From: Williamwhitmania sp.
GTDB lineage: Bacteria > Bacteroidota > Bacteroidia > Bacteroidales > Williamwhitmaniaceae
Assembly (NCBI GenBank): GCA_035529935.1
Contig: DATKVT010000074.1
Location: 1-45,410 of the forward strand
Length of the DNA: 45,410 nucleotides
Direction: 5' to 3'
Shown: positions 1,783 to 15,596 of the stretch, piece by piece
Numbering within the stretch: the first letter of the stretch is position 1
How the letters are laid out: each line of letters opens with the position of its first letter
Made by a program: the position numbers and the translations under genes
The notes under the pieces: generated by a model
Databases searched by the model: none
The model's input: only the letters and a program-made list of their open reading frames with translations
Told to the model about the DNA's origin: nothing

Positions 1783-2646
<864 letters not shown>

Positions 2647-2751
2647 GCGGTTAGAATATCGCCTACTCCTCACTAAAAAAGCAAACCCAGGCAATGGCTT
2701 GTCGGGGTCTAATTTTACATGTGGTCTCAAATTCGCTACAGAGCCTATCTC

Positions 2752-3180
2752 CTACTTCACCTCCTCAAGCGTAATACCTGCTGAGGTAAACTTATCCATG
2801 AGCAAATCGGGTGAAACAGGGCGACCATTCCGAATGAGCGCAGCAAAAATGCGCGCTTCAATGGCCACCTTCATATCCGACTTACGCAAAATCTCCTGAT
2901 CAAAAATCAAGCGAAGGTTACCCTTCCGCCCCATCTTCAACCTCACCAGAAAATCGTCACCAGGCTTAAGCGACGACTTATACTCCAGCTCGGCGCGTAT
3001 CACCACGGCATCGATGCCATCGTTGTGCATTGTGGCAAAATCGAGGTCAACAGTGTTGAGAAACTTATGCCTACAGTGCTCCAGATAGTTCTGATACACC
3101 GAATTGTTTACAATGCCCTGAATGTCGCACTCGTAGTCGCGAACCTGCATTTCCATCTCAAAATCAAACGCTTTCAACAT
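2752..3180 (-). CDS. Acyl-CoA thioesterase, hotdog fold (YbgC/4HBT family)
   Basis: Single-domain hotdog thioesterase of about 142 aa, expected to hydrolyse acyl-CoA or acyl-ACP thioesters in the cytosol. The signature is VRDYECDIQGIVNNSVYQNY, in which the Asp before xxGIVNN is the catalytic acid of the 4-hydroxybenzoyl-CoA thioesterase family, followed by the LEH--HKFL helix. The ORF extends to a GTG at 3198, but the first ATG is at 3180 (MLKAFDFEMEMQVRDYE), which I take as the start. It is followed leftward by unrelated genes; no operon partner indicates the acyl substrate. Confidence 0.85.
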   Translation of the reverse strand: MLKAFDFEMEMQVRDYECDIQGIVNNSVYQNYLEHCRHKFLNTVDLDFATMHNDGIDAVVIRAELEYKSSLKPGDDFLVRLKMGRKGNLRLIFDQEILRKSDMKVAIEARIFAALIRNGRPVSPDLLMDKFTSAGITLEEVK

Positions 3181-3243
3181 CACAATCTTTTTTTTCACAT
3201 AAGACTAAAACACAAAGAACCGAGTGGCCCAAGGTTTGCAAGG

Positions 3244-3606
3244 CTAACGCTTCGCCAACGCCGTTCTTGCCTCCTCCGTAGAGCTCACAAAGTTGATTCG
3301 CCCAACCCTGTTGCTTTCGTAAATAAAATCGCGCAGGCTCTTGCTCGTGTACTTAGAGAAATCGCCCACAACGGCAAGCCGCATACCGTATGTAGAAAAC
3401 TTTTGGAGTATCTCACCAGCAATACCCATCTTTAAATCGAAAAACTCGGGGATGATATTCCTTTCTTGAATAACAATGCTTCCAGCTCCCTGGTAGCTAC
3501 AGTTCCCCATAATATCCAGCACATCGTCAGTATTGCGTATTTCAATGCCATCGGACACCACCTCGGCTACGCTATTTCCCTCAATGTTTATAACATCTAT
3601 CTTCAT
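3244..3606 (-). CDS. DUF4180 domain protein
   Basis: A 120-aa soluble protein matching the DUF4180 pattern: MKIDVINIEGNSVAEVVSDG at the N-terminus, then IRNTDDVLDIMGNC, the central SIVIQERNIIPEFFDLKMGIAGEIL region, and a C-terminal VGDFSKYTSKSLRDFIYESN followed by the NFVSSTEEA strand-helix. The fold is likely related to STAS-like or SpoIIAA-like domains, but the function is not known. The longer ORF to 3642 adds twelve residues without family support, so the ATG at 3606 is used. It lies between a thioesterase and a membrane-anchored hypothetical protein on the same strand. Confidence 0.75.
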   Translation of the reverse strand: MKIDVINIEGNSVAEVVSDGIEIRNTDDVLDIMGNCSYQGAGSIVIQERNIIPEFFDLKMGIAGEILQKFSTYGMRLAVVGDFSKYTSKSLRDFIYESNRVGRINFVSSTEEARTALAKR

Positions 3607-3642
3607 GGTAACTGCTATTACTCTGTGCAAAATATACTGCAC

Positions 3643-4209
3643 TTAGCTCTTCACATCTAGGTATACCGTTAAATCTTCGATTAGCTGCTTTTGCTCAGCA
3701 TCAAAGTCGGTAAGATTAGTCATCAAGTTCGTAATCTGCAGTATTACATAATCCAAATTATTCCTATTGCCAATTTTATTCTTAATCAGCACGAATAGCT
3801 CATCGCTCATACGATTCTCCAACTCTTTGAGTGAGTTTTGCGATTCGTAATTTTCCACAATTCTTGACACCAATTTATAATCAATATCCTTCAGTATACC
3901 GGTATTTTTAGCAGTTTCGTAGCCAATGCCCTTCACATCCAACCCGCTATAGCTTATGGTGACAAACATTTCACCATGCACGTTTGTCTTCTTCTGTATT
4001 CTGGTGAAGTTCAAACGCAGCGTATCCAAGCTTCGCATTGTGACTTCAACATTTTTATTATTCTCCTTCAGCTCATTCAGAATGGTAAGAAAAACCTGCT
4101 TTTGGATGGTATGCTCCTTATAATTCATGCCAACATTACTTATCCAAAAAGCAATTAGGATTCCCAAAATTACGATGCTTATCTCCTTTAGATACTCTTT
4201 AAAGTTCAT
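3643..4209 (-). CDS. Membrane-anchored hypothetical protein, DUF6090-like
   Basis: A 188-aa protein with one N-terminal membrane helix (ISIVILGILIAFWISNVG, about residues 10-27) preceded by a short charged segment KEYLKE. The rest is hydrophilic and probably helical, with many Glu, Lys and Asn residues. The arrangement 'helix ILGILIAFWI then N--NE/KEH' resembles Bacteroidota DUF6090 proteins, whose function is unknown. No catalytic motif is seen. Its end lies 36 nt from the DUF4180 start on the same strand, so the two may be co-transcribed. Confidence 0.55.
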   Translation of the reverse strand: MNFKEYLKEISIVILGILIAFWISNVGMNYKEHTIQKQVFLTILNELKENNKNVEVTMRSLDTLRLNFTRIQKKTNVHGEMFVTISYSGLDVKGIGYETAKNTGILKDIDYKLVSRIVENYESQNSLKELENRMSDELFVLIKNKIGNRNNLDYVILQITNLMTNLTDFDAEQKQLIEDLTVYLDVKS

Positions 4210-4380
4210 GCCGTTAAATTTTTAAAATGAATGTATCAATCTCTGCTGCTACTATTCTTGCTTAAACCCTTTAATAGAGCCACGATTAATACCTATAAAA
4301 GTAGCAAGAATATTACACCCCACCTAGACAAAGCCAGCCAATTTCAAGCTTCTCAAGAAGTCGTGCAGGGCAGGGAGCAC

Positions 4381-4770
4381 CTAGCGAGGTAAGAAGCTGT
4401 AGATTAAAACAAGGAGAACAATGAGCGTAAAGGCAACATACATGTAGTCCTTCTCATAGATAAAGGCAAATACAGAAAAGAGAACCCTAATAACGGGCGT
4501 GGCAATGAGCAGCAATACCCCTAGCTCCATTATGGAGACGGACCGCAGCGCGATTACACCGTTGAGCAAATCCCGGAAATCGGAAAAGTTGAAGGGGTCG
4601 GCCTTAAAAATATGGTAGCTGGGAATCTCCGTTCCGTGCCTTGCCAAAAAGAAGATGGCACCGATAATAACCACGGCACCGGCGGCAATCACGCCAACAC
4701 GGAGCAGGTTTCCCAGCGCAACTTCGATGCTCCCATCCAGGCCCTTGGTTTTACCTTGTGGCTTACTCAT
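4381..4770 (-). CDS. DUF1634 family membrane protein
   Basis: A 129-aa inner-membrane protein with three predicted helices: VGVIAAGAVVIIGAIFFLA, SIMELGVLLLIATPVIRVLF and YVAFTLIVLLVLIYSFL. The N-terminal EVALGNLLRVGV and the ATPVIRVLFSVFAF--EKDYMYV pattern are diagnostic of DUF1634. Genes of this family are regularly paired with TauE/SafE permeases, and here the start overlaps the permease stop by 4 nt (ATGA), so translational coupling is likely. By context it is probably an accessory subunit or partner of that transporter; the biochemical role is not established. Confidence 0.85.
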   Translation of the reverse strand: MSKPQGKTKGLDGSIEVALGNLLRVGVIAAGAVVIIGAIFFLARHGTEIPSYHIFKADPFNFSDFRDLLNGVIALRSVSIMELGVLLLIATPVIRVLFSVFAFIYEKDYMYVAFTLIVLLVLIYSFLPR

Positions 4771-5603
4771 TTCAGTCCGTTTTTAAGCATTTCGAAGGCC
4801 AGCACTAGAATAATTGCCGTAAATACAGCTTTTAAAGTCTTGGAGGAGGCGGTGGTTAGCACCTTGGCACCCAGAAAGGCACCGGTTAACACTCCCAGCA
4901 TTACCGGCATTACAAGGGCAGCATGGATAAACCCATTTTTGAGGTATATGCCTGCACTAGCCGCGGCGGTTACCCCAATCATAAAGTTACTGGTGGTGGT
5001 GGATACCTTGAACGGTATTTTCATAATCCTATCCATGGCTATCACCTTTATGGCACCGCCACCTATGCCCAGCAATCCCGACATTATTCCGGCAACGGTG
5101 GAAAGGCCAAACCCAAAAGGAACATTCCGCACTGAGTAACGCTCCATTCCGTTACCCGTGGGATACTCGCCATTTAGCTTTAGTAATTTGGCATACCTGT
5201 CCTCTTCGGTATAGGTAACATTTCCCTTCCTTCTAAGAATGGACGAAAATGCAGAGTACACAAGAATTCCGGCAAAAATGATTGAAATAGAGTTGGCGGA
5301 GAGTATACCTGCCAACAGGGCGCCAACAACCGCGCCGATGGTAGTTGCCATCTCCAAAAACATGCCAATTCGGATGTTCGAGTAGCCCTCTTTAACGTAG
5401 GCGGAGGCCGAGCCCGAGGAGGTGGCAATAACCGAGATGAGCGATGCACCCGCCGCAAAGTGAATATCTACTCCAAACAGCACCGTAAGCATGGGAACCA
5501 CCACCACTCCCCCGCCCAAACCGGTTAGCGATCCCAGCAGCCCGGCAAAAAAGGAGCCGATGTAGATCAGGAGCGAAAAGAGTAGATTATCGAGGTGTGG
5601 CAT
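4767..5603 (-). CDS. TauE/SafE family anion permease
   Basis: A 278-aa integral membrane protein of the TauE/SafE (sulfite exporter) family, expected to move sulfite, sulfoacetate or a related anion. The internal duplication is visible: FAGLLGSLTGLGGGVVVVPM in the first half and AGIMSGLLGIGGGAIKVIAM in the second, each the glycine-rich signature of one repeat, with about eight hydrophobic segments in total. The downstream DUF1634 gene overlaps it. It is not closely similar to the second TauE-type permease at 34979. The transported substrate cannot be stated from the sequence. Confidence 0.87.
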   Translation of the reverse strand: MPHLDNLLFSLLIYIGSFFAGLLGSLTGLGGGVVVVPMLTVLFGVDIHFAAGASLISVIATSSGSASAYVKEGYSNIRIGMFLEMATTIGAVVGALLAGILSANSISIIFAGILVYSAFSSILRRKGNVTYTEEDRYAKLLKLNGEYPTGNGMERYSVRNVPFGFGLSTVAGIMSGLLGIGGGAIKVIAMDRIMKIPFKVSTTTSNFMIGVTAAASAGIYLKNGFIHAALVMPVMLGVLTGAFLGAKVLTTASSKTLKAVFTAIILVLAFEMLKNGLK

Positions 5604-5683
5604 AGGCAGAGCGCATTACCAAAAAAACTCAGGCAAATTTAGGAATAGTGGCCGAAATAAACCAGCGTTTGCCCTTGCTTTAA

Positions 5684-5939
5684 GAAACTAATTTTCGGCA
5701 GTGGTTGTTTGAAGGGAGTCCTTATCTGTTATTGGCAACTGCTTGTAGCTCGTTTCTTATGGTTTATAGGCGAAAACGATTTAAAGGTGAACCACTACGA
5801 CATTGAAACCAATGGCTGCTACGATGGTTTCGATAAAAATGGTGTTAACCGCAATCTAGGAGCCGAAAGCACGCTGGCCTATTTGATCTCTTATCTGTCA
5901 GTTTTGCAGGGCCACGAAGAACTTAATAAGGCAAATTAA
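5684..5939 (+). pseudogene. 3' remnant of a GT4-type glycosyltransferase, frameshifted
   Basis: About 85 codons survive in two frames. In the frame of position 5702 I read WLFEGSPYLLLATA; near 5744-5753 the homology moves to the frame of 5709 and continues RFLWFIGENDLKVNHYD, TNGCYDGFDKNGVNRN and LGAESTLAYLISYLSVLQG, ending at TAA 5937-5939. The GC-DG----GVN-N-GAESTLAYL block is the C-terminal hallmark of the long glycosyltransferases often encoded next to GH130 enzymes in Bacteroidota, and a GH130 gene lies immediately alongside. An in-frame stop at 5681-5683 and absence of upstream homology show 5' truncation. The stop overlaps the convergent GH130 stop by 3 nt. Confidence 0.7.
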
Positions 5940-7411
5940 GCCTTCTCTGAGTTTTTTAATTCATTCAGCAGCGCCCTTAAGTTGACCGTGGCGTAGGTGG
6001 ATGCATAATCGGACATGGCATAGGGTAAGATCAGGCTCTCGTTATGGATCATCGATCCGCAGGAATATACAACGTTAGGCACATAGCCCTCTCGCTCCTC
6101 TGCGTTGGCAACCAATAACGGATGGCTTAACCGTCCTATTTCAACTTCAGGATTTTGAAGATCGAATAGCGATGCCCCTATAGCATATTCGCGCATGGGG
6201 CCAACGCCATGGGTGATTACCAGCCATCCCTCCTCCGTTTCGATGGGAGAACCACAGTTCCCAATTTGTACCAATTCCCAGGGAAATTTTGGCTGCTGTA
6301 TGAGCTTTGCTTCACGCCAAATATTTATATTATCCGAAAAGGCAATGTAATTATTGAATCCATCGAGCCGGCAAAGCATGGCATACTTGCCGCCAATTTT
6401 TCTGGGAAACATGGCCATTCCCTTATTCTGAGCAATCTCACCATAAACAGGTAAGCTTTTGAAATGGTAAAAATCGCTGGTGTCTAGTAGCTTTGGCAAT
6501 ATGGTGCTGCCATTGTATGCTGTGTAGGTGGCATAGTATTTCGTTTCACCATTATCATTGGTAAACTTGACGAAACGGGCATCTTCAATACCATTCTTTT
6601 CATTTATCGCAACCGGAAAAATCACCCTTTCCGAGATGTTGGTGTCCAATGAAAATTGTATTTCGTAATGCGAGGAGGCCAGCCACATAATTTGGTTAAT
6701 CAATATCTCCTTATCAGCAGCCAAATGAAGGCCACTTCGTACCTCTTCAACACATTTTCGGAGGTCTTCATAGGTAAAAGTATCGCTTAGCTTATCGAGT
6801 ATCAATCCGGGAGGCATAATGGAATGAAAGTCCATCTCTTCCAACTTTACGGTAAACGATTTTTTATTGTATAAATGCCGCTGAATATTTTGAGCCTCCT
6901 CCAGCATTTTTCCAACCGGTTCAATGGTAAGATTGCTACTTATGTCTAAAATTCCGGTTCGGAATACGATTGACGAAATATGTCCCTCTCCGGTAGCCCT
7001 TAAGCTTATTATTACCCTTTTTTCACCCGGTATAATCCCCGACTGATCGGGATGTTCAACTATGGACGGATTAAAAAGGGCTGCGGAATCAACTGCATAC
7101 TCCATGGTAAAGTAAGCACCAATGAGCAATTTCCGGTTATAATCGAGCGGGTCTGAATTGGTCTTTATCTGTGCAAACAAATGGGCAATATTGTTAAAAT
7201 GCCTTTCAAAGATTGCTGTGACATTACGATGTCGCAATGAATAATCTCTCATTACCTGACTTAAGCTCAAATGTGCTTCATTCTCCGTTAGGCCCACTAC
7301 CGATTGAATAATACCCATTGCTCTTTCGTCGGTTGTATATAAAAAACGCGCGATTACTCTGGATGAATCTGGAATAAACCTTATATTTTTCCTATTTACG
7401 GCAGCTTGCAT
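5936..7411 (-). CDS. GH130 family beta-mannoside phosphorylase-like protein
   Basis: A 491-aa enzyme of glycoside hydrolase family 130, which phosphorolyses (or in some subfamilies hydrolyses) beta-mannosidic linkages. An N-terminal helical region of about 230 residues precedes the five-bladed propeller domain. The GIEDARFVKF motif (about residues 274-283) carries the conserved catalytic Asp; later come GSTILPKL, MAMFPRKIGGKYAMLCR, GNCGSPIETEEGWLVITHG and ILPYAMSD. The subfamily and the exact disaccharide are not determined. The usual partner, a GT4-type glycosyltransferase, survives only as a pseudogene directly downstream, so the linked pathway may be broken. No signal peptide is seen, so it is cytoplasmic. 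Confidence 0.87.
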   Translation of the reverse strand: MQAAVNRKNIRFIPDSSRVIARFLYTTDERAMGIIQSVVGLTENEAHLSLSQVMRDYSLRHRNVTAIFERHFNNIAHLFAQIKTNSDPLDYNRKLLIGAYFTMEYAVDSAALFNPSIVEHPDQSGIIPGEKRVIISLRATGEGHISSIVFRTGILDISSNLTIEPVGKMLEEAQNIQRHLYNKKSFTVKLEEMDFHSIMPPGLILDKLSDTFTYEDLRKCVEEVRSGLHLAADKEILINQIMWLASSHYEIQFSLDTNISERVIFPVAINEKNGIEDARFVKFTNDNGETKYYATYTAYNGSTILPKLLDTSDFYHFKSLPVYGEIAQNKGMAMFPRKIGGKYAMLCRLDGFNNYIAFSDNINIWREAKLIQQPKFPWELVQIGNCGSPIETEEGWLVITHGVGPMREYAIGASLFDLQNPEVEIGRLSHPLLVANAEEREGYVPNVVYSCGSMIHNESLILPYAMSDYASTYATVNLRALLNELKNSEKA

Positions 7412-7430
7412 AGTCCCTACTAATTTTCTC

Positions 7431-7438
7431 CAAAGTTA
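7431..7438 (-). promoter_or_regulatory. Putative -7 box of the GH130 gene
   Basis: On the minus strand this reads TAACTTTG, a full match to TAnnTTTG, 20 nt upstream of the ATG. No matching -33 TTTG is seen. Confidence 0.45.
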
Positions 7439-7627
7439 GTAGCATATAATGAATAAGCCCTTTTTATTCCACTTATCTCGCAGAGCCTTGGCAAGGAGAT
7501 AGAACGCTAAAAATCTGTGGATACAACGAATTCCGGCCAAAATGATTGAAATCGCTTGCACGGAGCTGCCCAAATAGCTGGTCAAGCCCTCCTTCCCTGT
7601 GCATTAGTAATGTGTTTTGACCGGAGA

Positions 7628-8152
7628 CTATTTTAATGAATCCCTGTCCCAATTTGCGGGATTGTTTATAATGTAATCCGATATTTTCATATACGATTGT
7701 TCATCGCGGATAATGTGTTCGTGGTAATTACGTTGCCAAATTTTTTCGTTGAAACCCAATAAACCCAATTGTTTTGTAACCGATGATTTATATCCACGAA
7801 CAATTGCACCAATTGTTTGCGATGGCGAACGTAGGGGCGTATCGCATACGCCCTGTTTGTTGGGCGAATCCAATTCGCCCCTACCCAATAACCGGACAAT
7901 GCCATGGATATGGTTTGGCATTATTACAAATTCACCCAATTCAACGTTGTTTCGTATTTCGGTTGTTTTCATCCATTCGTTGCAGGCAATGTGCCCGTAT
8001 TCGTTCAATACCATCACCCCATTTTCGATATTTCCAAACAAACACGCCCTATTTTGGCAACACAGGGTAATAAAATACAATCCTGCCCGCGCATAATCGT
8101 ATCCCTTTAGGCGGATGCTGCGGCGATGGTGTTTCTCAGGGTTATAGGCCAT
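7628..8152 (-). CDS. REP-associated tyrosine transposase (RAYT, Y1/IS200-like)
   Basis: A 174-aa single-strand DNA transposase-like protein of the Y1/HUH superfamily. Marks: RSIRLKGYDYARAGLYFIT at the N-terminus, FVIMPNHIHGIVRL carrying the HxH metal pair, and a C-terminal IWQRNYHEHIIRDEQSYMKISDYI segment with the candidate nucleophilic Tyr, ending NNPANWDRD. RAYTs are domesticated transposases linked to REP palindromes. This gene carries two such palindromes internally (7831-7884), read in frame as GRGELDSPNKQGVCDTPLR between the HUH motif and the C-terminal domain. No IS ends flank it. The ORF is intact and likely functional. Confidence 0.88.
   Translation of the reverse strand: MAYNPEKHHRRSIRLKGYDYARAGLYFITLCCQNRACLFGNIENGVMVLNEYGHIACNEWMKTTEIRNNVELGEFVIMPNHIHGIVRLLGRGELDSPNKQGVCDTPLRSPSQTIGAIVRGYKSSVTKQLGLLGFNEKIWQRNYHEHIIRDEQSYMKISDYIINNPANWDRDSLK
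7831..7884. repeat. REP-like double palindrome inside the RAYT gene
   Basis: Outer inverted repeats GTAGGGGCG (7831-7839) and CGCCCCTAC (7876-7884) are perfect. Inside lie two hairpins: GGGCGTAT/ATACGCCC (7835-7842 with 7846-7853, loop CGC) and GGGCGAAT/ATTCGCCC (7862-7869 with 7873-7880, loop CCA). The arrangement is BIME-like and matches the kind of palindrome RAYTs act on. Confidence 0.75.
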
Positions 8153-8183
8153 TCTACACTATTTTCTAGTATTTCAATTTCAT

Positions 8184-8597
8184 CTACGGTTTAGCTTTCA
8201 TTTTATCCAATATTGCTCCACCAAAATACACCACAAGCAAATAGGGCGAAAGCATAACAAAAGCAAATATTGCCCTTACAGGCCAGCCAACCCCCATCGA
8301 GCTTTGGTAAAGCATTTTCACCTTGGCCAAATTTTCATTGGCAACATTTCTTAGACGCAACGCCTCTGTCCAACCCTCAAAGTCATAGCCGTAATGAGAA
8401 AGTAGAATGGCATTGGATTCATCACCCCACCAGGAAAAAATAATAGCGAGTAGTGCCAAAAACAGTAATCCCCAAAGAATATACTTCGTAAAAACCCCTT
8501 CCCTATTTCTACGCTTGATGCGAATTAGCAATAAAATTGGGGATAGCACAATCAAACCGAACAGGGTAAGATTAATGGCAATGACTAAAGCTTCCAT
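8184..8597 (-). CDS. Hypothetical membrane protein
   Basis: A 137-aa protein I do not recognise. Three hydrophobic stretches are visible: ALVIAINLTLFGLIVLSPILL (N-terminal), YILWGLLFLALLAIIFSW (about residues 39-56) and FAFVMLSPYLLVVYFGGAIL (near the C-terminus), with a roughly 45-residue loop between the second and third (GDESNAILLSHYGYDFEGW). A basic stretch RIKRRNREG follows the first helix and is probably cytoplasmic. It sits 31 nt upstream of the RAYT gene on the same strand, but this is probably coincidental. Confidence 0.6.
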   Translation of the reverse strand: MEALVIAINLTLFGLIVLSPILLLIRIKRRNREGVFTKYILWGLLFLALLAIIFSWWGDESNAILLSHYGYDFEGWTEALRLRNVANENLAKVKMLYQSSMGVGWPVRAIFAFVMLSPYLLVVYFGGAILDKMKAKP

Positions 8598-8627
8598 AAT
8601 AACTATAAAACACCTATCTTATCATTG

Positions 8628-8754
8628 ACAACGGTTACGTATATGAAACGTTTGACATTTCGAAGCACTTCCCTGTCAAGTTACAACTACTTTTGATACG
8701 AGCTGTGCCGCTCGATAACGCACTGACTGCCAAATGTTTTATATACGATGTTGT
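8628..8754. repeat. Imperfect palindrome, attC-like or MITE-like
   Basis: The left arm (8628-8657) starts ACAACGGTTACGTATATG; the reverse complement of the right arm (8728-8754) starts ACAACATCGTATATAAAA. The arms agree at ACAAC and at 17 of the next 22 aligned positions, with a 3-nt gap. The roughly 70-nt centre contains a short GAGC/GCTC stem (about 8700-8714). The AAC and GTT ends recall attC core sites, but the full RYYYAAC/GTTRRRY boxes are not matched. Confidence 0.5.
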
Positions 8755-8763
8755 ACCCCGTTT

Positions 8764-9495
8764 TTATTTCCTTCTTTTTTCTATATGCTTGATTAATAAT
8801 GATTTTACATAGTCAGGTAATGCAATTTCCCCCTTGTCTGCTTCTTTCTTTAATGCTTCAAAAAAATTCACTTCTACTCCTTGCCATGTCAATTCGAGTC
8901 GGCGAATCTTTTCTAAAGTAATGTGGTCATAATTCTCAGGTCTGCCCCAATAACACTTTAAACAGATTTCAATATCTTTTGAATCATTCCAATTTTCACA
9001 GTGTTCACAAGACCATGACTTTGCTCTATTGCAAGAAGCGCAAAGAAGCATATAATCATTGATGTTTTGCTGAAAATTTTCATCATCCCCACTTATTTCA
9101 TATGGCACTCTATGGTCAACTTGCAAATACCTTTCTTCAAACTTTCCATTACAGATATAGCAATGCCCATTATTTGCATCATATAATGATTTTTTGAAAT
9201 CTTTCGAAAATATTTGCCGTCCGTCAACACGATTATTTCGTATTTTCGAAAGGTCTCCAAATCTGTATGCAGCTATTGATTTGCCATCAGCGGATTTTGT
9301 TTTAAATGTTTCAAGTGGGATTCCTGCTTCCCTAACATCTCTTGCCGCACGGGGTGGATGATTATATCCGTAAGTTTTTTCTAAATCTTCAGTTGTTATA
9401 AAACCGTGTTTTAGAATATGGTCAATAACAATCTTGGCTCTTTTATTGGTTATTGATTCTGCAAGTTTTAAAAATTCTTTCGGGTACTTTTTCAT
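8764..9495 (-). CDS. HNH-type type II restriction endonuclease
   Basis: A 243-aa HNH nuclease, expected to cleave unmodified DNA at the site protected by the overlapping methyltransferase. A helix-turn-helix-like N-terminal region (about residues 18-60, HGFITTEDLEKTYGYNHPPR) precedes the nuclease core: CYIC (112-115), LQVDHRVPYE with the catalytic Asp-His (about 124-133), and CASCNRAKSW (152-161), so two Cys pairs form the usual zinc knuckle of HNH proteins. A further Cys set, CEHC (163-166) and CLKC (178-181), may bind a second zinc. Its ATG overlaps the methylase stop by 4 nt. The genes are visibly more A+T-rich than their neighbours, suggesting recent transfer. The recognition sequence is not inferable. 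Confidence 0.85.
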   Translation of the reverse strand: MKKYPKEFLKLAESITNKRAKIVIDHILKHGFITTEDLEKTYGYNHPPRAARDVREAGIPLETFKTKSADGKSIAAYRFGDLSKIRNNRVDGRQIFSKDFKKSLYDANNGHCYICNGKFEERYLQVDHRVPYEISGDDENFQQNINDYMLLCASCNRAKSWSCEHCENWNDSKDIEICLKCYWGRPENYDHITLEKIRRLELTWQGVEVNFFEALKKEADKGEIALPDYVKSLLIKHIEKRRK

Positions 9496-10400
9496 ACGAA
9501 GTCAAACAATGAAGGCTGTTTAATTGAAACTGATTCTATCCGTTTATTTATATGCGAAATTGAGGCTAAGTTATCGGATATATAAACAGCTTCATATGTC
9601 CGTTCGTTCCTACTATGCAATGTTGCAATTGAAGAACGACCTGCATCTATTTCAATTTTATGTAAATTCAATTCCTTAGGAAGTTCCTCTCCGTATGTTT
9701 TATTGTCAGTACGACCATCATAACTTAAAATGAACGGAATATTTCGCTTGTTTAATTTGTAAAGTGAAATCACAAAATTTTCATGATTGAGGTCTTCCAT
9801 ATATCTAAACCCGCCATTTTTTGCTGTCCCTTGGTACGGTGGGTCCATATAAACTAAATCATTCTCAGTTGCCATATCCAAAATTTTCTCATAATCAACA
9901 GAATGGAAAGTAACTTTGTCCTTTAATAGATTTGAAACATTTAAAATATCAAATCTCATATTTTCAGGTAAACGCCCTTTTCTTCTTTTGTCAGGACTTT
10001 GATTAAAATTGCCTTCTGCATTATATCGAACTGCTGCTTTAACGCATTTAGCCAATAAAAATAATAGATATTTTGGCTCTTTTGTTTGATTAAAACTGTC
10101 TCTTATTTGATAATAAAAATCTTCTTCATTACCAAGTTGGTTATTCCAAATATGATGATAATCCCGAATTATTGTCTGAGGCTCATTTACAATTTTTTCC
10201 CAAAGATTTATTAAGGGTTCATTGATGTCGTTTACAATAAACTTGTTAGCTTTGAAATAATATGCTGATGCAATAGTAATTGCAGCCGAACCAGCAAAAG
10301 GTTCAATTAATCTATCAATCTTTTGAGGAAAAAATCTTAAGATGTCCGCAGCAAGGTTTCTTTTGCTACCTTGATATGGTATTGGATGTGGTATCTTCAT
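9492..10400 (-). CDS. DNA adenine-N6 methyltransferase, D12 class (type II R-M)
   Basis: A 302-aa methyltransferase of the Dam/D12 (alpha) class that transfers a methyl group from S-adenosylmethionine to adenine N6. It begins with the class signature PIPYQGSKRNLA; motif I is LIEPFAGSAA (about residues 31-40) and the catalytic motif IV is DPPY (186-189) in LVYMDPPYQGT. The variable region between (about 60-180) should hold the target recognition part. It is first in a two-gene unit with the HNH endonuclease, whose start overlaps its stop (ATGA). Methylase-first order is usual for protecting the host before nuclease accumulates. Palindromic elements bracket the pair. Confidence 0.92.
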   Translation of the reverse strand: MKIPHPIPYQGSKRNLAADILRFFPQKIDRLIEPFAGSAAITIASAYYFKANKFIVNDINEPLINLWEKIVNEPQTIIRDYHHIWNNQLGNEEDFYYQIRDSFNQTKEPKYLLFLLAKCVKAAVRYNAEGNFNQSPDKRRKGRLPENMRFDILNVSNLLKDKVTFHSVDYEKILDMATENDLVYMDPPYQGTAKNGGFRYMEDLNHENFVISLYKLNKRNIPFILSYDGRTDNKTYGEELPKELNLHKIEIDAGRSSIATLHSRNERTYEAVYISDNLASISHINKRIESVSIKQPSLFDFV

Positions 10401-10416
10401 ATAATTCTATTTTTTA

Positions 10417-10424
10417 CAAAATTA
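10417..10424 (-). promoter_or_regulatory. Putative -7 box of the R-M operon
   Basis: On the minus strand this reads TAATTTTG, a full TAnnTTTG match, 17 nt upstream of the methyltransferase ATG. Confidence 0.45.
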
Positions 10425-10476
10425 ATCATTTTCGTTCAACATGTCTAATTTATGGTAGGTCGTCTTTTAAAATGGG

Positions 10477-10515
10477 GTACAACGAGTGTATAAACACAGC
10501 TATCGTTGTTATTTC
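10477..10515. repeat. Inverted copy of the 8.75-kb palindrome end, flanking the R-M pair
   Basis: GGGGTACAAC (10477-10486) is the exact reverse complement of GTTGTACCCC (8750-8759) on the other side of the R-M genes. With the adjoining A/T tract, 15 of 17 positions match. The segment also forms its own small palindrome (ACAACGA about 10482-10488 with TCGTTGT about 10509-10515). Confidence 0.5.
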
Positions 10516-10524
10516 CGCCTTAGG

Positions 10525-10838
10525 CAAACCTTTTTTTCTTGAAACTCTCGTCGCACCATGGGCGGCAAAGAGCCACTTCCAAGATTGATTTATCCCATAA
10601 TTTGCCATTCGTTGGTATCTCAAACTTACAAAAAATATGCATTAGCCCAAGCTATCCTACTGATTTTTAACCAGGACAATCCTTGAGCCAAGGTTGGCCT
10701 AAATGCAATGGTGTTTATTCCGTTTAATAGCAAAATAAAATCTATTCAGGAATCGATGTATGCGTAAGCCGTTTATTGTAGATTGTGTTAAAAGTGTCAG
10801 ACCGCTGCCATTCTTGCTTTATCACTCGATAAAACTCA
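10525..10838. other. Intergenic stretch without a recognised gene
   Basis: I see no credible coding region here. A short CCTTGAGCCAAGG hairpin lies near 10680-10693. Minus-strand open frames run in from the tandem array but show no family features. Confidence 0.5.
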
Positions 10839-11213
10839 GGCAGAGAAGGGAGGCAACCGGGCAAACATCGAAGGTCATCTGGCAGAGAAGGGAGCGCACC
10901 GGACAAACATCGAAGGAGATATGACAGAGAAGGGAGCCTTCTGGCAGACATTGAGGGATATCTGGCAAAGAAGGGAGGCAACCGGACAAACATCGAAGGG
11001 CATTTGGCAAAGAAGGGAATCCACCAGATAGTCATCGAAGGAGCTCCGGCAAAGAAGGAAGCCTTCGGGCAGACATCGAAGGTCATCTGGCAGAGAAGGG
11101 AGGCCACCGGACAAACATCGAAGAATATCTGGCAAAGAAAGGAGCCTTCCGGCAGACATCGAAGGCGATCTGGCAGAGAAGGGAGCCCACCGGACAGCCA
11201 TCGAAGGAGGTTT
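10839..11213. repeat. Nine-unit 41/42-bp degenerate tandem repeat with two unit types
   Basis: Units start at 10839, 10881, 10923, 10964, 11006, 11048, 11089, 11131 and 11172. Six are 42 bp (type A, core ACCGGACAAACATCGAAGG) and three are 41 bp (type B, core GCCTTCCGGCAGACATCGAAG), in the order A A B A A B A B A. All start with GGCARAGAAGGGAG or a close variant. Type B units can pair GCCTTC with GAAGGC. There are no unique spacers, so this is not a CRISPR. The mixed unit length breaks any reading frame. A degenerate unit end recurs at 11975-11998. Confidence 0.9.
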
Positions 11214-11291
11214 TGCAAAAGCAAGCTTATCCTACCCTTGAAAGTAATGACCCAAGATATTCTAAAATTTACGAATGACGAAGAGAGGACT

Positions 11292-11636
11292 CTAGCCGAT
11301 GCCGCTATTCAGCAGCTCGGCTATTTCTTGTTTGAGATTTTTAAGGTCCTTGATTACGATTGTCCAGATAATATCTTCAGATACCGAATCGTACCCGTGG
11401 CTTATTCTATTCCTTGTATCCACAATTTTTCTAGCATTTGCTATTTTGATATCTGGATGGACCTTTAGAATTCTATTTACCGCTTCACCAATTATTTCAA
11501 TATTTCGCTCAATTGCTTTTTTTCCTTTTAAGTCTTTTTTGAACTCAAAAAAATTAAGTTTCGCGGGCAAAAAAGTTTCAATCTCATCGATAGATTGGCT
11601 AATATCTTCAAGCCAAGTTCGAACTTCCACTTCCAT
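11292..11636 (-). CDS. hepT: HepT-like HEPN ribonuclease toxin
   Basis: A HEPN-domain (DUF86) toxin of 114 aa from the chosen start. The catalytic RNase motif Rx4HxY is intact: RNRISHGY, with Arg75, His80 and Tyr82. Helical flanks WLEDISQSIDEIETF and AIERNIEIIGEAVNRIL match the family. Family toxins cleave RNA, and in the best-studied pairs the Tyr is adenylylated by the MntA partner. The ORF extends to 11666, but MEVEVRTWLEDI at 11636 is where the family starts; either way it overlaps the end of mntA. Composition is A+T-rich. The pair lies between two 24-bp direct repeats that belong to the tandem array. Confidence 0.87.
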   Translation of the reverse strand: MEVEVRTWLEDISQSIDEIETFLPAKLNFFEFKKDLKGKKAIERNIEIIGEAVNRILKVHPDIKIANARKIVDTRNRISHGYDSVSEDIIWTIVIKDLKNLKQEIAELLNSGIG

Positions 11637-11928
11637 ATATTTGGACTTTAGTTCGTTCAATTTCACCTTTCAAAAATTTGTTGCGGATGGCCTTTTGCTC
11701 GAGCAGGTCAATATGCCGCTTAAATATTTCCTCGAGCTGAAACTTAAGATTAAAGTATTTGTCCGTGTATGAAATAGGGTCATTATCATCAATATCAACC
11801 ACCAAGTCTATATCGCTATCGGGATTAAACCTATCCGTAGTCACCGAACCAAAGGCAAATAACGTCCTAACTTTGTTGGCCTCACAAAGTTGAATTATCT
11901 GCTTAATATTTTGGTCTATCACTGTCAT
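11608..11928 (-). CDS. mntA: MntA-like minimal nucleotidyltransferase antitoxin
   Basis: A 106-aa minimal nucleotidyltransferase. The family signature GSx10DxD is clear: FAFGSVTTDRFNPDSDIDLVVD (Gly27-Ser28, Asp39, Asp41). MntA proteins neutralise HepT by transferring AMP to the toxin's Rx4HxY tyrosine. It is the upstream gene of the pair, and its last codons overlap the hepT start by 29 nt, the standard order. A TAACTTTG -7 box lies just upstream of the ATG, implying a very short leader. The C-terminal tail YGSGSSNLA shows nothing further. Confidence 0.88.
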   Translation of the reverse strand: MTVIDQNIKQIIQLCEANKVRTLFAFGSVTTDRFNPDSDIDLVVDIDDNDPISYTDKYFNLKFQLEEIFKRHIDLLEQKAIRNKFLKGEIERTKVQIYGSGSSNLA

Positions 11929-11935
11929 ACAGGTT

Positions 11936-11943
11936 CAAAGTTA
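11936..11943 (-). promoter_or_regulatory. Putative -7 box of mntA-hepT
   Basis: The minus strand reads TAACTTTG, a full match to TAnnTTTG, 8 nt upstream of the mntA ATG. Transcription would begin only a few bases before the start codon. Confidence 0.5.
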
Positions 11944-11974
11944 GCGATTTTTTGTTGATAAATGGTATGCCACA

Positions 11975-11998
11975 CATCAAAGGAGATTTTGCAAAAGC
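11975..11998 (+). repeat. Outlying copy of the tandem-array end
   Basis: This 24-mer (CATCAAAGGAGATTTTGCAAAAGC, given here only to locate the unit; 22 of 24 bases match 11199-11222) is a direct repeat of the array's distal end. Another fragment like the unit start (GGCAAAGAAG) follows near 12015. Together they flank mntA-hepT on the side away from the array. Confidence 0.7.
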
Positions 11999-12158
11999 CA
12001 ACCACTCCTCCCATGGCAAAGAAGCTGTAGATGTTGTATATTTAGCAAAAGTTTAAGGCAAGGGTTGGTCACGCAAGGTATAGGGCACCTCTCCAACTAA
12101 GTAGGCGCTTTATGGCTCAAAGGTGGCGGCCAGTTACCATTTAAAAATCAGTATAGCC

Positions 12159-13004
12159 ATGAAATACATTGGAGCACACGTTAGCGCTTCGGGTGGTGTG
12201 GAGAATGCACCACGCAATGCCGCAGCCATTGGGGCAAAAGCCTTCGCCCTATTCACAAAAAATCAACGTCAGTGGAAATCGGCACCGCTAACGCAGACCA
12301 GCATCGAGGGTTTTAAAAAGGCGTGCAAAGAGCTTGGATTTAAGCCCGAGCACATCCTGCCGCACGACAGCTACCTCATTAACCTTGGCCATCCCGAAAA
12401 GGAGGCGCTGGAAAAATCGAGGGAGGCCTTCCTCGACGAGATGCAGCGGTGCGAGCAGCTGGGTCTCGACCGGCTAAACTTTCACCCCGGCAGCCACCTC
12501 AACCAAATAAGCCTGGAGGCGTGCCTCGATTTGGTGGCCGAATCCATCAACATTGCCCTCGCAAAAACCAAGGACGTAATTGCCGTAATTGAAAACACCG
12601 CCGGGCAAGGCACCAACGTAGGGCACACCTTTGAGCAGCTGCGCCACATTATCGACAAGGTGGAGGACAAAACCCGCGTTGGCGTGTGCATAGACACCTG
12701 CCACGCCTTCACCGCCGGATACAACCTCAAGGAGCAAGGGGAGTTCAACGAGGTTTTTCAGCGGTTCGACGAAACCATTGGGTTCAAGTACCTAAAGGGA
12801 ATGCACATCAACGACTCCAAAAAGGAGTTCGCCTCCCGGGTCGACCGGCACGATAGCATCGGCAAGGGGTTTTTGGGCATCGATACCTTTAAGTATATTA
12901 TGAAGGATTCGCGGTTCGACAACATTCCGCTCATTCTGGAAACACCCGACGAAACCATTTGGCAGGAGGAAATTGCCATGCTCTACGCCATGCAAGCAAA
13001 GTAA
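12159..13004 (+). CDS. nfo: Deoxyribonuclease IV (AP endonuclease)
   Basis: A 281-aa zinc-dependent apurinic/apyrimidinic endonuclease of the Nfo family, acting in base excision repair by cutting 5' of abasic sites. It begins [13 protein letters not shown], with the family's first metal-binding region, then [29 protein letters not shown] (metal-binding Glu), [14 protein letters not shown] (Asp and His), [23 protein letters not shown] and LILETPDE. All expected metal ligands are visible. The ORF could open at a GTG at 12123, but the ATG at 12159 is the family start. It is followed 18 nt later by an isoaspartyl peptidase gene. Confidence 0.95.
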
Positions 13005-13022
13005 AACCTAATCTATGAAGCC

Positions 13023-13982
13023 ATGAAAAGCGTTCTTTTATTCGTACTAGCCATAGCAATGTCAACAATGCTATCAGCACAGGAAAAGTGGGCCATTGCC
13101 ATTCACGGTGGTGCAGGAAACATCACCCCCGAGAAGCTGGGCGCCGACTCGCTAGTCTACAAGGCTGCGCTGGATTCGGCCCTGTCGATTGGTGCTGATA
13201 TCCTGTCGAAGGGAGGAACCAGCCTCGATGCGGTGGAGCAGGTGGTAATTTATCTTGAGAACAATCCGCACTTTAACGCAGGCAAGGGTGCCGTTTTTAC
13301 CTCAGCGGGTAAGAATGAGCTCGACGCCTGCATCATGGACGGAAAAACGCTGGAATCGGGTGCCGTGGCCGGTGTAGGCGATATTAAGAATCCTATTGTG
13401 GCCGCCAGAGCGGTGATGGAAAAGTCGGGTGCCGTGCTGCTTGCCGGTGCAGGAGCCTCCAACTTTGCGCGTGCCAACGGCATTGAGATGGTGGACTCCT
13501 CCTACTTCTTCACCGAAAGAAGCTGGCAAAGCTACCTGAAGGCCAAGCAGGTGCCTCCAACGGAAAAGCACGGAACGGTAGGCTGCGTAGCCCTCGACAT
13601 GAACGGAAACTTAGCGGCGGCAACCTCCACTGGTGGCATGACCAACAAGCTCCCCGGAAGAATTGGCGACTCTCCCATAGTTGGCGCCGGAACCTACGCA
13701 AACAACAACGCCTGCGCCATTTCGTGCACGGGTCATGGGGAGTTCTTTATTCGCTACACCGTTGCCCGAAGTATTGCCGCGCTGGTGGAGTATCGCGATG
13801 TAGATTTGAAGGATGCCGTTTCGCAAATGATTTGGAAAACGCTAAAACCCATTGGTGCCGAAGGTGGCGTAATTGCCCTCGATAGACAAGGAAATATCGT
13901 TACTGACTTCAACACCCCGGGCATGTTTCGTGGATTTGCCTCCTCCTCAGGAAAAAAGATGGTTGGCCTCTTTGCTAGGTAA
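13023..13982 (+). CDS. Isoaspartyl peptidase / plant-type L-asparaginase
   Basis: A 319-aa Ntn-hydrolase that cleaves beta-aspartyl peptides and L-asparagine. A signal peptide (MKSVLLFVLAIAMSTMLSAQ) suggests export to the periplasm. The family start WAIAIHGGAGNI is followed by SLDAVEQVV and FNAGKGAVFTSAGKNELDA. The autocleavage site is KHGTVGCVALD, in which the Thr becomes the nucleophile of the beta chain, followed by ATSTGGMTNKLPGRIGDSPI and GTGHGEFF-like CTGHGEFFIRY. The precursor length is normal. It runs close behind nfo and ends before a terminator. Confidence 0.93.
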   Translation: MKSVLLFVLAIAMSTMLSAQEKWAIAIHGGAGNITPEKLGADSLVYKAALDSALSIGADILSKGGTSLDAVEQVVIYLENNPHFNAGKGAVFTSAGKNELDACIMDGKTLESGAVAGVGDIKNPIVAARAVMEKSGAVLLAGAGASNFARANGIEMVDSSYFFTERSWQSYLKAKQVPPTEKHGTVGCVALDMNGNLAAATSTGGMTNKLPGRIGDSPIVGAGTYANNNACAISCTGHGEFFIRYTVARSIAALVEYRDVDLKDAVSQMIWKTLKPIGAEGGVIALDRQGNIVTDFNTPGMFRGFASSSGKKMVGLFAR

Positions 13983-14042
13983 CTATTGGCATGGACAATA
14001 TGTTGCCATAATCCTGATTAAAAGCAAACTATAATTAGTTTT

Positions 14043-14080
14043 AAAAAAGCCCTCACGGAATTTGGTGGGGGCTTTTTTTT
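14043..14080 (+). terminator. Terminator after the isoaspartyl peptidase gene
   Basis: An AAGCCCTCAC/GGTGGGGGCTT hairpin (one G.U pair, 7-nt loop) followed by eight Ts. Its descending arm overlaps the -33 box of the next promoter. Confidence 0.8.
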
Positions 14081-14091
14081 CCATAACTTTG
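14061..14091 (+). promoter_or_regulatory. Promoter of the EamA-IMPACT-pyrBI operon
   Basis: A TTTG -33 box at 14061-14064 and TAACTTTG -7 box at 14084-14091, spaced 19 nt, match the Bacteroidota housekeeping consensus. The ATG follows 16 nt later. Confidence 0.65.
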
Positions 14092-14106
14092 CGTAAACAT
14101 TGAGTA

Positions 14107-14988
14107 ATGGTTCTGTTGCTGCTTAGCATACTATCATCAACCACAATTCTGGTGATTTTCAAGCTTTCGGAGAAGCTTCAAGTAAAAAGTCTCCCCATTA
14201 TTGCCCTCAACTACGCCGTAGCAACATTGCTCGGTTTTTTTTTGGCCGATAAGTCGCAAATTTCACTTCAATCTGCTGGATACGAATGGATTGCCTTTGC
14301 ACTAGGATTAGGCGTCCTCTTTATTGGCCTCTTTTTTATAGTGGCCCAAAGCACACAGCTGGCGGGCATTGCTCCCACCACCATTGCGACGAAGATGTCG
14401 GTCATTTTTCCCATACTGCTATCGCTCGCCATTGAACCCAATGATAAGCTAACCCCGATAAAGTTATCGGGGTTTATTTTGGCCATAACCGCCCTGCTCC
14501 TGAGCAGCTACCCGTCCAAAAAGGAAAAGAGCAACCGAAAGCTGTGGTTTCCAATCATCCTCTTCTTTGGCATGGGATTGATTGACTCGCTCATGAAGTT
14601 CTCCCAAGCAAAGTTTGTGAGCGATGAGCTCAAGCCCATCTTTCTAACCCTTCTCTTTGGAACAGCCTGCATCATTGGTTTTGTCCTAGTGCTTCGCAGT
14701 AGAGAGAACCGTCGTGGGTTCCTAGAGATAAAAACGCTAGGCTTAGGATTGGCCCTAGGTGCTGCAAACTTTGGTTCAGCCTACTTTTTCATAGGTATGC
14801 TCAACTACTCCACAAAGTATGGCTTTCTCGATAGTTCCACGCTCATCGGCGTAAACAACATTGGCATTGTACTGTGTAGCTCAGCCATTGGACGCTTCAT
14901 ATTCAAGGAGAAGTATTCCATGCTCAACATTGGAGGAATAGTCCTTGCGGTTTTTGCCCTCTACCTCCTAACCTACCTCGTGCCATGA
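14107..14988 (+). CDS. EamA/DMT-superfamily transporter
   Basis: A 293-aa membrane protein with about ten hydrophobic helices in two five-helix halves, as in the drug/metabolite transporter superfamily. The first half contains VAQSTQLAGIAPTTIATKMSV, ending SGFILAITALLLSSYPSK; the second contains GLGLALGAANFGSAYFFIGML and ends IGGIVLAVFALYLLTYLV. The substrate is unknown. The last codon overlaps the start of the IMPACT-family gene by 4 nt (ATGA), so the two are translationally coupled and lead into pyrB-pyrI. Confidence 0.82.
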   Translation: MVLLLLSILSSTTILVIFKLSEKLQVKSLPIIALNYAVATLLGFFLADKSQISLQSAGYEWIAFALGLGVLFIGLFFIVAQSTQLAGIAPTTIATKMSVIFPILLSLAIEPNDKLTPIKLSGFILAITALLLSSYPSKKEKSNRKLWFPIILFFGMGLIDSLMKFSQAKFVSDELKPIFLTLLFGTACIIGFVLVLRSRENRRGFLEIKTLGLGLALGAANFGSAYFFIGMLNYSTKYGFLDSSTLIGVNNIGIVLCSSAIGRFIFKEKYSMLNIGGIVLAVFALYLLTYLVP

Positions 14989-15596
14989 GCGACGACACCT
15001 ATAAAACCATAGCTGCTGCCACCGAACCGGAAGGTAACTTTCGCGATAGAGGGAGTAAATTCATTGGTCTGCTCTACCCCATTCAAAACGAAGATGAGGC
15101 AAAAGCCATTTTACATACAGTTAAAAAGCAATACTACGACGCCACGCATCACTGCTACGCATACCGTTTTGGACCAACAGGTGAAAATTACCGGGCCAAC
15201 GACGATGGTGAGCCATCCGGTTCGGCGGGCAAGCCCATTCTCAACCAGCTGCTCTCTGCGGAAATCACCAATGTGCTAGCCGTGGTGGTCCGCTACTATG
15301 GCGGAACAAAGTTGGGTGTTCCGGGGTTAATTAATGCCTACAAGGAGGCAACGCGGCAAGCCATAAGTGAAGCAGAAATTGTTGAGAGAACGGTAAATGA
15401 TAGGTTTGAGGTGAAGTTTGAATACGTTGCCATGAACGACGTGATGAAGGCGGTAAAGGAGCTGTCGCCCACCATTGTAAGCCAAGATATGGGCCTTAGC
15501 TGCCAAATGGTGCTGGAGATAAGGCAGAGCTTATCGGCTCAATTAGAAGAGAGACTCTCTGGAAAGGAGATGATAACCATTGAATTAGTAGAATAG
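14985..15596 (+). CDS. IMPACT/YigZ family protein
   Basis: A 203-aa member of the UPF0029 (IMPACT N-terminal) family, a conserved soluble protein implicated in translation or amino-acid-related regulation, though its biochemical role in bacteria is not settled. The signature is complete: [15 protein letters not shown], then [30 protein letters not shown] and [20 protein letters not shown]. The C-terminal region (about 135-203) is the typical ferredoxin-like extension of YigZ proteins. It is coupled to the transporter upstream and precedes pyrB by 25 nt. Confidence 0.92.

Follow-up and report, generated by a model that had tools for sequence, protein, structure and literature searches.

How did a restriction–modification (R-M) gene pair come to be bracketed by an exact inverted repeat in the genome of a Williamwhitmania species, and what are these repeats? 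The pair lies in a stretch of 45,410 nucleotides, the whole of which was analysed and is hereinafter called the window. The initial annotation had seen in it a mobile two-gene defence unit, carried by a recombination element and having no transposase of its own. This general picture stands, the recombination being site-specific, even though the nature of the repeats had gone unrecognized: these form the R' and R'' boxes of an integron gene cassette and are not transposon ends. We hold it as very probable that the R-M pair is such a cassette, placed first at the attI of an integron that has since been stripped of its integrase gene except for the extreme 3' end.

Anatomy of the bracketed unit

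The word GTTGTACCCC occupies 8750-8759; its exact reverse complement stands at 10474-10483, three positions lower than the initial annotation had placed it (10477-10486). Read directly from the sequence, 15 of 17 bases match when the repeats are extended inward, just as had been stated. The genes between them, an HNH endonuclease and a D12 methylase, were both correctly named and are indeed richer in A+T than their neighbours, with a G+C content of 33% for the cassette as against 42% for the window and 50% for the right neighbourhood. Such an exact 10-bp inverted repeat around genes of low G+C, with an IS200/REP-type transposase gene nearby (7628-8152), might recall a small transposon or miniature element with terminal inverted repeats of 10–17 bp, mobilized by a transposase supplied in trans. 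However, the 10-mer occurs at background frequency, with four copies in the 4.04-Mb genome versus five for its reversed control, and the remaining two copies lie in unrelated sequence; since its copy number is no higher than that of the control, it cannot count as a repeated transposon end. What rises above chance is the arrangement: on the minus strand an attC site directly follows the 8750-8759 copy and an attI-like sequence directly precedes the 10474-10483 copy. The repeats are thus part of recombination sites, and the same geometry recurs in other cassettes, though the words there are different. Further, Y1 transposases are not known to use inverted-repeat ends of this kind. The match to attC and attI in effect refutes the transposon, which we set aside as scarcely credible, its supposed ends being accounted for by the R' and R'' boxes.

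Viewed on the minus strand, GTTGTACCCC starts the unit and GGGGTACAAC ends it, followed by a long imperfect palindrome; this order of R' box, genes, R'' box and attC is the anatomy of an integron cassette (Table 1). The R' at the cassette start is complementary to its own R'' in 10 of 10 nucleotides, and of 56 attC-like sites, 51 are paired with a matching start (7–10 nt), each with a sequence of its own. The element extends beyond the repeat on one side, up to the attC end at about 8632, while its other end adjoins attI. The suggested search for other genes bracketed by the same ends is bound to fail, since no two cassettes need share an R'/R'' pair and each brings its own.

Table 1. Features of the cassette and its surroundings, in window coordinates
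Feature	Coordinates	Strand	Basis
Integron gene cassette, 1851 bp (from the TT of the first R' box to the G of the attC R' box)	8632..10482	minus	matching 10-nt R'/R'', attC, attI junction
R' box GTTGTACCCC, attI x attC junction	10474..10483	minus	sequence
attI-like site, core AAGGCGGAAATAACAAC-ATAGCTG-GTTTATACACTCG	10483..10531	minus	46 of 49 positions identical to the C120 attI
Homologue of the C120 integrase gene 3' end (last codons) and downstream spacer	10532..10668	minus	blastn, alignment
TAATTTTG, candidate -7 promoter motif in cassette leader	10417..10424	minus	inference
D12-class (Dam/DpnM-like) adenine-N6 DNA methyltransferase, 302 aa	9492..10400	minus	PF02086, TIGR00571, PADLOC, PDB
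HNH type II restriction endonuclease, 243 aa	8764..9495	minus	PF01844, PADLOC
R'' box GGGGTACAAC, attC start, complementary to own R'	8750..8759	minus	sequence
attC, 131 nt, R''-L''...L'-R', stem CGTATATaAAACaTTTGgCA / TGTCAAACGTTTCATATACG	8626..8756	minus	covariance model CM R1
Second cassette start or pre-insertion flank, GTTGTCAATG...	8184..8631	minus	sequence, relatives

A first scan for attC-like sites gave false positives, with one of 150 shuffled 10-kb stretches reaching the score of the window, and hence the attC call rests on a covariance model (CM R1). We built this model ourselves because Rfam offered no ready one, its search returning only tRNA and no attC match. It was trained on 37 attCs from other arrays of this genome and its relatives, with the site of the window, its closest homologue (in locus L071) and two near-identical sites of another array (L064) excluded. 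In the alignment of these 37, compensatory double changes occur in 16 of the 17 pairs of the consensus stem, with almost no single-sided changes. The model matches the window at full length (8758-8627, minus strand; 97.7 bits, E 4.9e-21) and recovers the L071 attC at E 2e-16; the match ranking next is a partial one (E 0.008). When a shortened version of the attC was simply folded, the result was not significant (z -0.7); the attCs of two arrays of this genome (those on contigs C113 and C150, see below) fold as typical stems. Over 123 nt, attCs of the L064 array, from a genome of another family (G223), share 94% identity with that of the window. In that array (2557-15000, reverse strand) we also observed attCs of 130 nt alternating with near-identical short attC repeats of 79 nt (ggttataacACCAGGTATAGTTCAGCC...), as might result from repeated copying of a single tiny gene cassette.

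The same model detects 34 attC sites on many contigs of the genome and one in the window, where at least two within 4 kb would define a CALIN; with this one attC alone, there is no array at the locus. The sequence next to the attC codes for a 137-aa membrane-protein-like product (8184-8597, minus), for which no matching downstream R'' or attC was found, and the segment is absent from the 40 relatives searched. The Y1 transposase-like gene of the IS200/REP type at 7628-8152 lies where a second cassette should end and may have removed its attC.

The two cassette genes are adjacent, as in type II R-M systems. The methylase is recognized by PF02086 (E 2e-39), TIGR00571 and the PADLOC type II MTase model (E 7e-77), and matches Dam/DpnM structures in the PDB. 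The nuclease is recognized by PF01844 and the PADLOC model REase_II PDLC03566 (E 1e-58); among solved structures we found no homologue of it that might guide a prediction of the recognition site. In Bacteroidota the -7 promoter motif is TAnnTTTG. The presence of the matching TAATTTTG in the cassette leader, and of similar motifs in the leaders of the homologous pairs of L071, L072 and L075, suggests that the R-M genes are probably expressed from a promoter within the cassette. This would suit an R-M pair, which ought to work regardless of where in an array it stands.

The attI junction and the mobility of the pair

The sequence ahead of the cassette aligns with the region downstream of an integrase gene on contig C120 of the same genome (blastn, 71% over 202 bp, E 2.5e-20). 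Of the 49 positions that lead up to the crossover, 46 are identical to the C120 attI. The identity ends at G/TT, with the crossover falling between G 10483 and T 10482, as is characteristic of a cassette at attI, and C120 goes on with a different cassette, GTTATGGTGC. Since the homology continues into the final codons of the C120 integrase gene, the window retains an attI and the tail of a lost integrase gene; only this 3' end is present in the window, the remainder being missing, whereas intact integrases are present elsewhere in the genome. The lack of an adjacent integrase gene and of an array could instead be read as insertion at a non-integron secondary (attG-like) site, the more so as the same cassette in L071 stands beside a different left flank, with only TGTTTATACA in common. 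Against this, the near-identity of the left flank to the C120 site and its homology into the integrase coding sequence leave a secondary site with little probability, and we retain insertion at attI as the preferred reading. The C120 comparison, with the same kind of site but a different first cassette, is the nearest thing to the empty-site test proposed in the initial annotation. No strict empty site was found among the relatives: a genome of the same genus (G080) is not syntenic here and has neither the R-M pair nor the 137-aa gene.

Two further features were observed on the integrase side of the junction. A tandem array of ~42-bp units (8.9 copies, 74% alike) occupies 10839-11208, just upstream of the lost integrase, and the C113 and C150 integrases are preceded by other degenerate repeats. 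Upstream of the tandem repeats lies a toxin–antitoxin-like pair of the HepT/MNT type (HEPN and nucleotidyltransferase; 11292-11928, minus).

A scan of genome contigs yielded 80 homologues of the nuclease. In the closest (L071, 97%) the cassette ends and attC are the same but the surroundings differ; in the next (L072, 92%) the R-M pair belongs to an array and is flanked by other attCs; and the pair of Niabella ginsengisoli (L075, 66%) is followed by an attC, again within an array. All three keep the endonuclease and methylase genes together. Two loci (L073, L132) preserve decayed remnants of the boxes only, TATGCCCC/GGGGCATA, and attC is missing from more distant homologues. To this extent, pairs without intact repeats, which the initial annotation would have counted against a mobile unit, do occur, but the closest relatives and the Niabella locus have attC. 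The occurrence of relatives at other sites and in other arrays, some with remnants or none, points to a pair that is carried about as a cassette and can become fixed through loss of its attC.

Briefly, we envisage the following mechanism. A tyrosine recombinase, perhaps like the three relatives elsewhere in the genome, would have joined the folded single-stranded attC of the circular cassette to attI at G/TT. The resulting product would be attI-G/TTGTACCCC...methylase-endonuclease...GGGGTACAAC-attC. Once inserted, the cassette would confer defence against phages in the usual manner of type II R-M systems, its genes probably being transcribed from a promoter of its own.

The integrases, their arrays and their spread

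The genome has six Phage_integrase genes, three of which (on C113, C150 and C120) are related to each other. Two of these (C113 and C150; 86% identical) head typical arrays that follow directly after the gene, that of C113 reading GTTGTGCCC...GGGCACAAC-attC-GTTGTGTGT...ACACACAAC-attC-GTTACCTGC...GCAGGTAAC-attC and so on. In all three integrases the match to the integron integrase model TIGR02249 (IntI) breaks into two pieces that skip positions 180-237, and the score stays below the curated cut-off (193 vs 265 bits), whereas the array-heading integrases exceed the cut-off of the XerA-like NF040815. By profile and by alignment they lack the IntI-specific additional domain: compared with two canonical IntIs of the same order, its insertions are missing and ~90 extra N-terminal residues are present, and an alignment with IntI4 from the PDB shows the same gap. 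The integrase tree, which has long branches, does not cleanly separate IntI from the forms devoid of this domain. As for the N-terminal extension, the Pfam HARP domain (PF07443, of SMARCAL1) is matched in 6 of 27 members (best E 8e-6; under the curated cut-off in the first family member), and the top PDB match of an N-terminal profile is the SMARCAL1 HARP domain 4O66 (E 0.009). In the AlphaFold model of one viral member the pLDDT is below 50 over this region. Together these matches are suggestive of a HARP-like domain, though the identification is not settled.

The arrays themselves offer some side observations. Those of C113 (L013, 11540-11709) and C150 (L014, 12028-12161) share an end sequence, which seems to be a group II intron in reverse orientation, lodged in the final attC; introns of the group IIC-attC class insert in such sites. 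Their cassettes, along with L274:2747-4702, include likely defence genes for HsdR-N-like, NB-ARC/TPR STAND-like and ion-channel proteins, a GajB-like UvrD helicase and a GNAT acetyltransferase; a gene near an attC in L274 corresponds to the PADLOC candidate PDC-S56.

A survey of 295 genomes of the order found the integrase family (E ≤ 1e-60) in 88 and a canonical IntI above its cut-off in five. Sites of the attC type are present in 78 of the 88 integrase-positive genomes versus 101 of the 207 integrase-negative ones (p 1.6e-11, shared ancestry being ignored), ten positives being free of attC at the threshold used. Among 20 stretches around the integrase drawn from relatives, most have the attI-like TATAAACNAGTT immediately after the gene, and cassettes are seen where the stretch is long enough. 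Querying IMG/VR with the integrase alignment brought up 80 loci (L158-L237), 61 of them with attC by the model. The viral integrases that we read are of ~267 aa, with neither the HARP-like nor the additional domain, and their arrays lie upstream on the opposite strand; L158 is an exception, with a HARP-like N-terminus and a co-directional array. Some viral contigs carry more than ten attCs in 6 kb. It is possible that these loci are large phage integrons.

These distributions bear on a further alternative, namely that XerA-like integrases lie beside arrays by chance and that a canonical IntI from another replicon or lineage moves the cassettes. The few genomes of the order with a canonical IntI, and the attCs in so many integrase-negative ones, would be compatible with this. 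Yet this genome has no canonical IntI, in many unrelated genomes the attI-like sequence and first cassette come immediately after such an integrase, and viral relatives of the family likewise head attC arrays. A foreign IntI is accordingly improbable, if less so than the secondary site considered above, and the resident integrases seem to act on their own arrays. More tentatively, at somewhat below even chances in our estimation, they may represent a large overlooked integron class of Bacteroidota and some viruses, with recombinases devoid of the IntI additional domain. The HARP-like domain of the cellular branch would then have taken over the recognition of folded attC hairpins; in SMARCAL1 this kind of domain binds forked DNA.

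Relation to known integrons

The cassettes of sedentary chromosomal integrons share with ours the R' and R'' boxes, the attI, the accessory genes and an attC hairpin conserved in structure and variable in sequence (PMC12444791). In contrast to those, the present systems have a Bacteroidota host, a non-canonical integrase co-directional with the adjacent array and attCs of uniform size (120–130 nt), and at the window locus the platform has lost its integrase. R-M genes have already been reported among integron cassettes (PMC12444791), and works cited there, including some on Vibrio, present integrons as defence libraries. With IntI (TIGR02249; PDB 2A3V) the integrases share the tyrosine recombinase core and the adjacency to attI and cassettes, but they lack the additional domain (profile positions 180-237) and have an extra HARP-like domain of ~90 aa at the N-terminus. 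Their core finds its best family match in the XerA/XerC-like recombinases (NF040815, whose name already reads 'tyrosine recombinase/integron integrase'; PDB 4A8E, 5HXY), from which they differ by the extra N-terminal domain and by attC arrays in place of dif.

Arrays of attC on viral contigs have precedents: a phage survey with IntegronFinder described three complete integrons and 17 integrase-less clusters (PMC9892861), as compared with our 61 attC-bearing loci among 80 that were chosen by their integrase. The 2022 survey with IntegronFinder 2.0 named one complete integron of Bacteroidetes, that of Salinibacter ruber (PMC9024848). The presence of the additional domain in archaeal IntIs was stressed on their description (PMC9668308), and the domain is called necessary for activity in the title of Messier and Roy 2001, as cited in PMC2426708. 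In the open literature, leaving aside subscription papers and preprints, we found no integrons with integrases devoid of the additional domain or endowed with a HARP domain. Judging from sequence comparisons, the cassette is a newly found instance of a known sort of element, whereas the platform appears to be a new and widespread integron variant.

In conclusion, an odd inverted repeat becomes the mark of a defined mobile unit, and R-M genes would spread among Bacteroidota as integron cassettes, by way of an integron platform present in roughly one in three of the genomes sampled from one order. If the broader reading is true, finders requiring the IntI domain would log such arrays as integrase-less. 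The claim that this domain is necessary becomes directly testable on these integrases.
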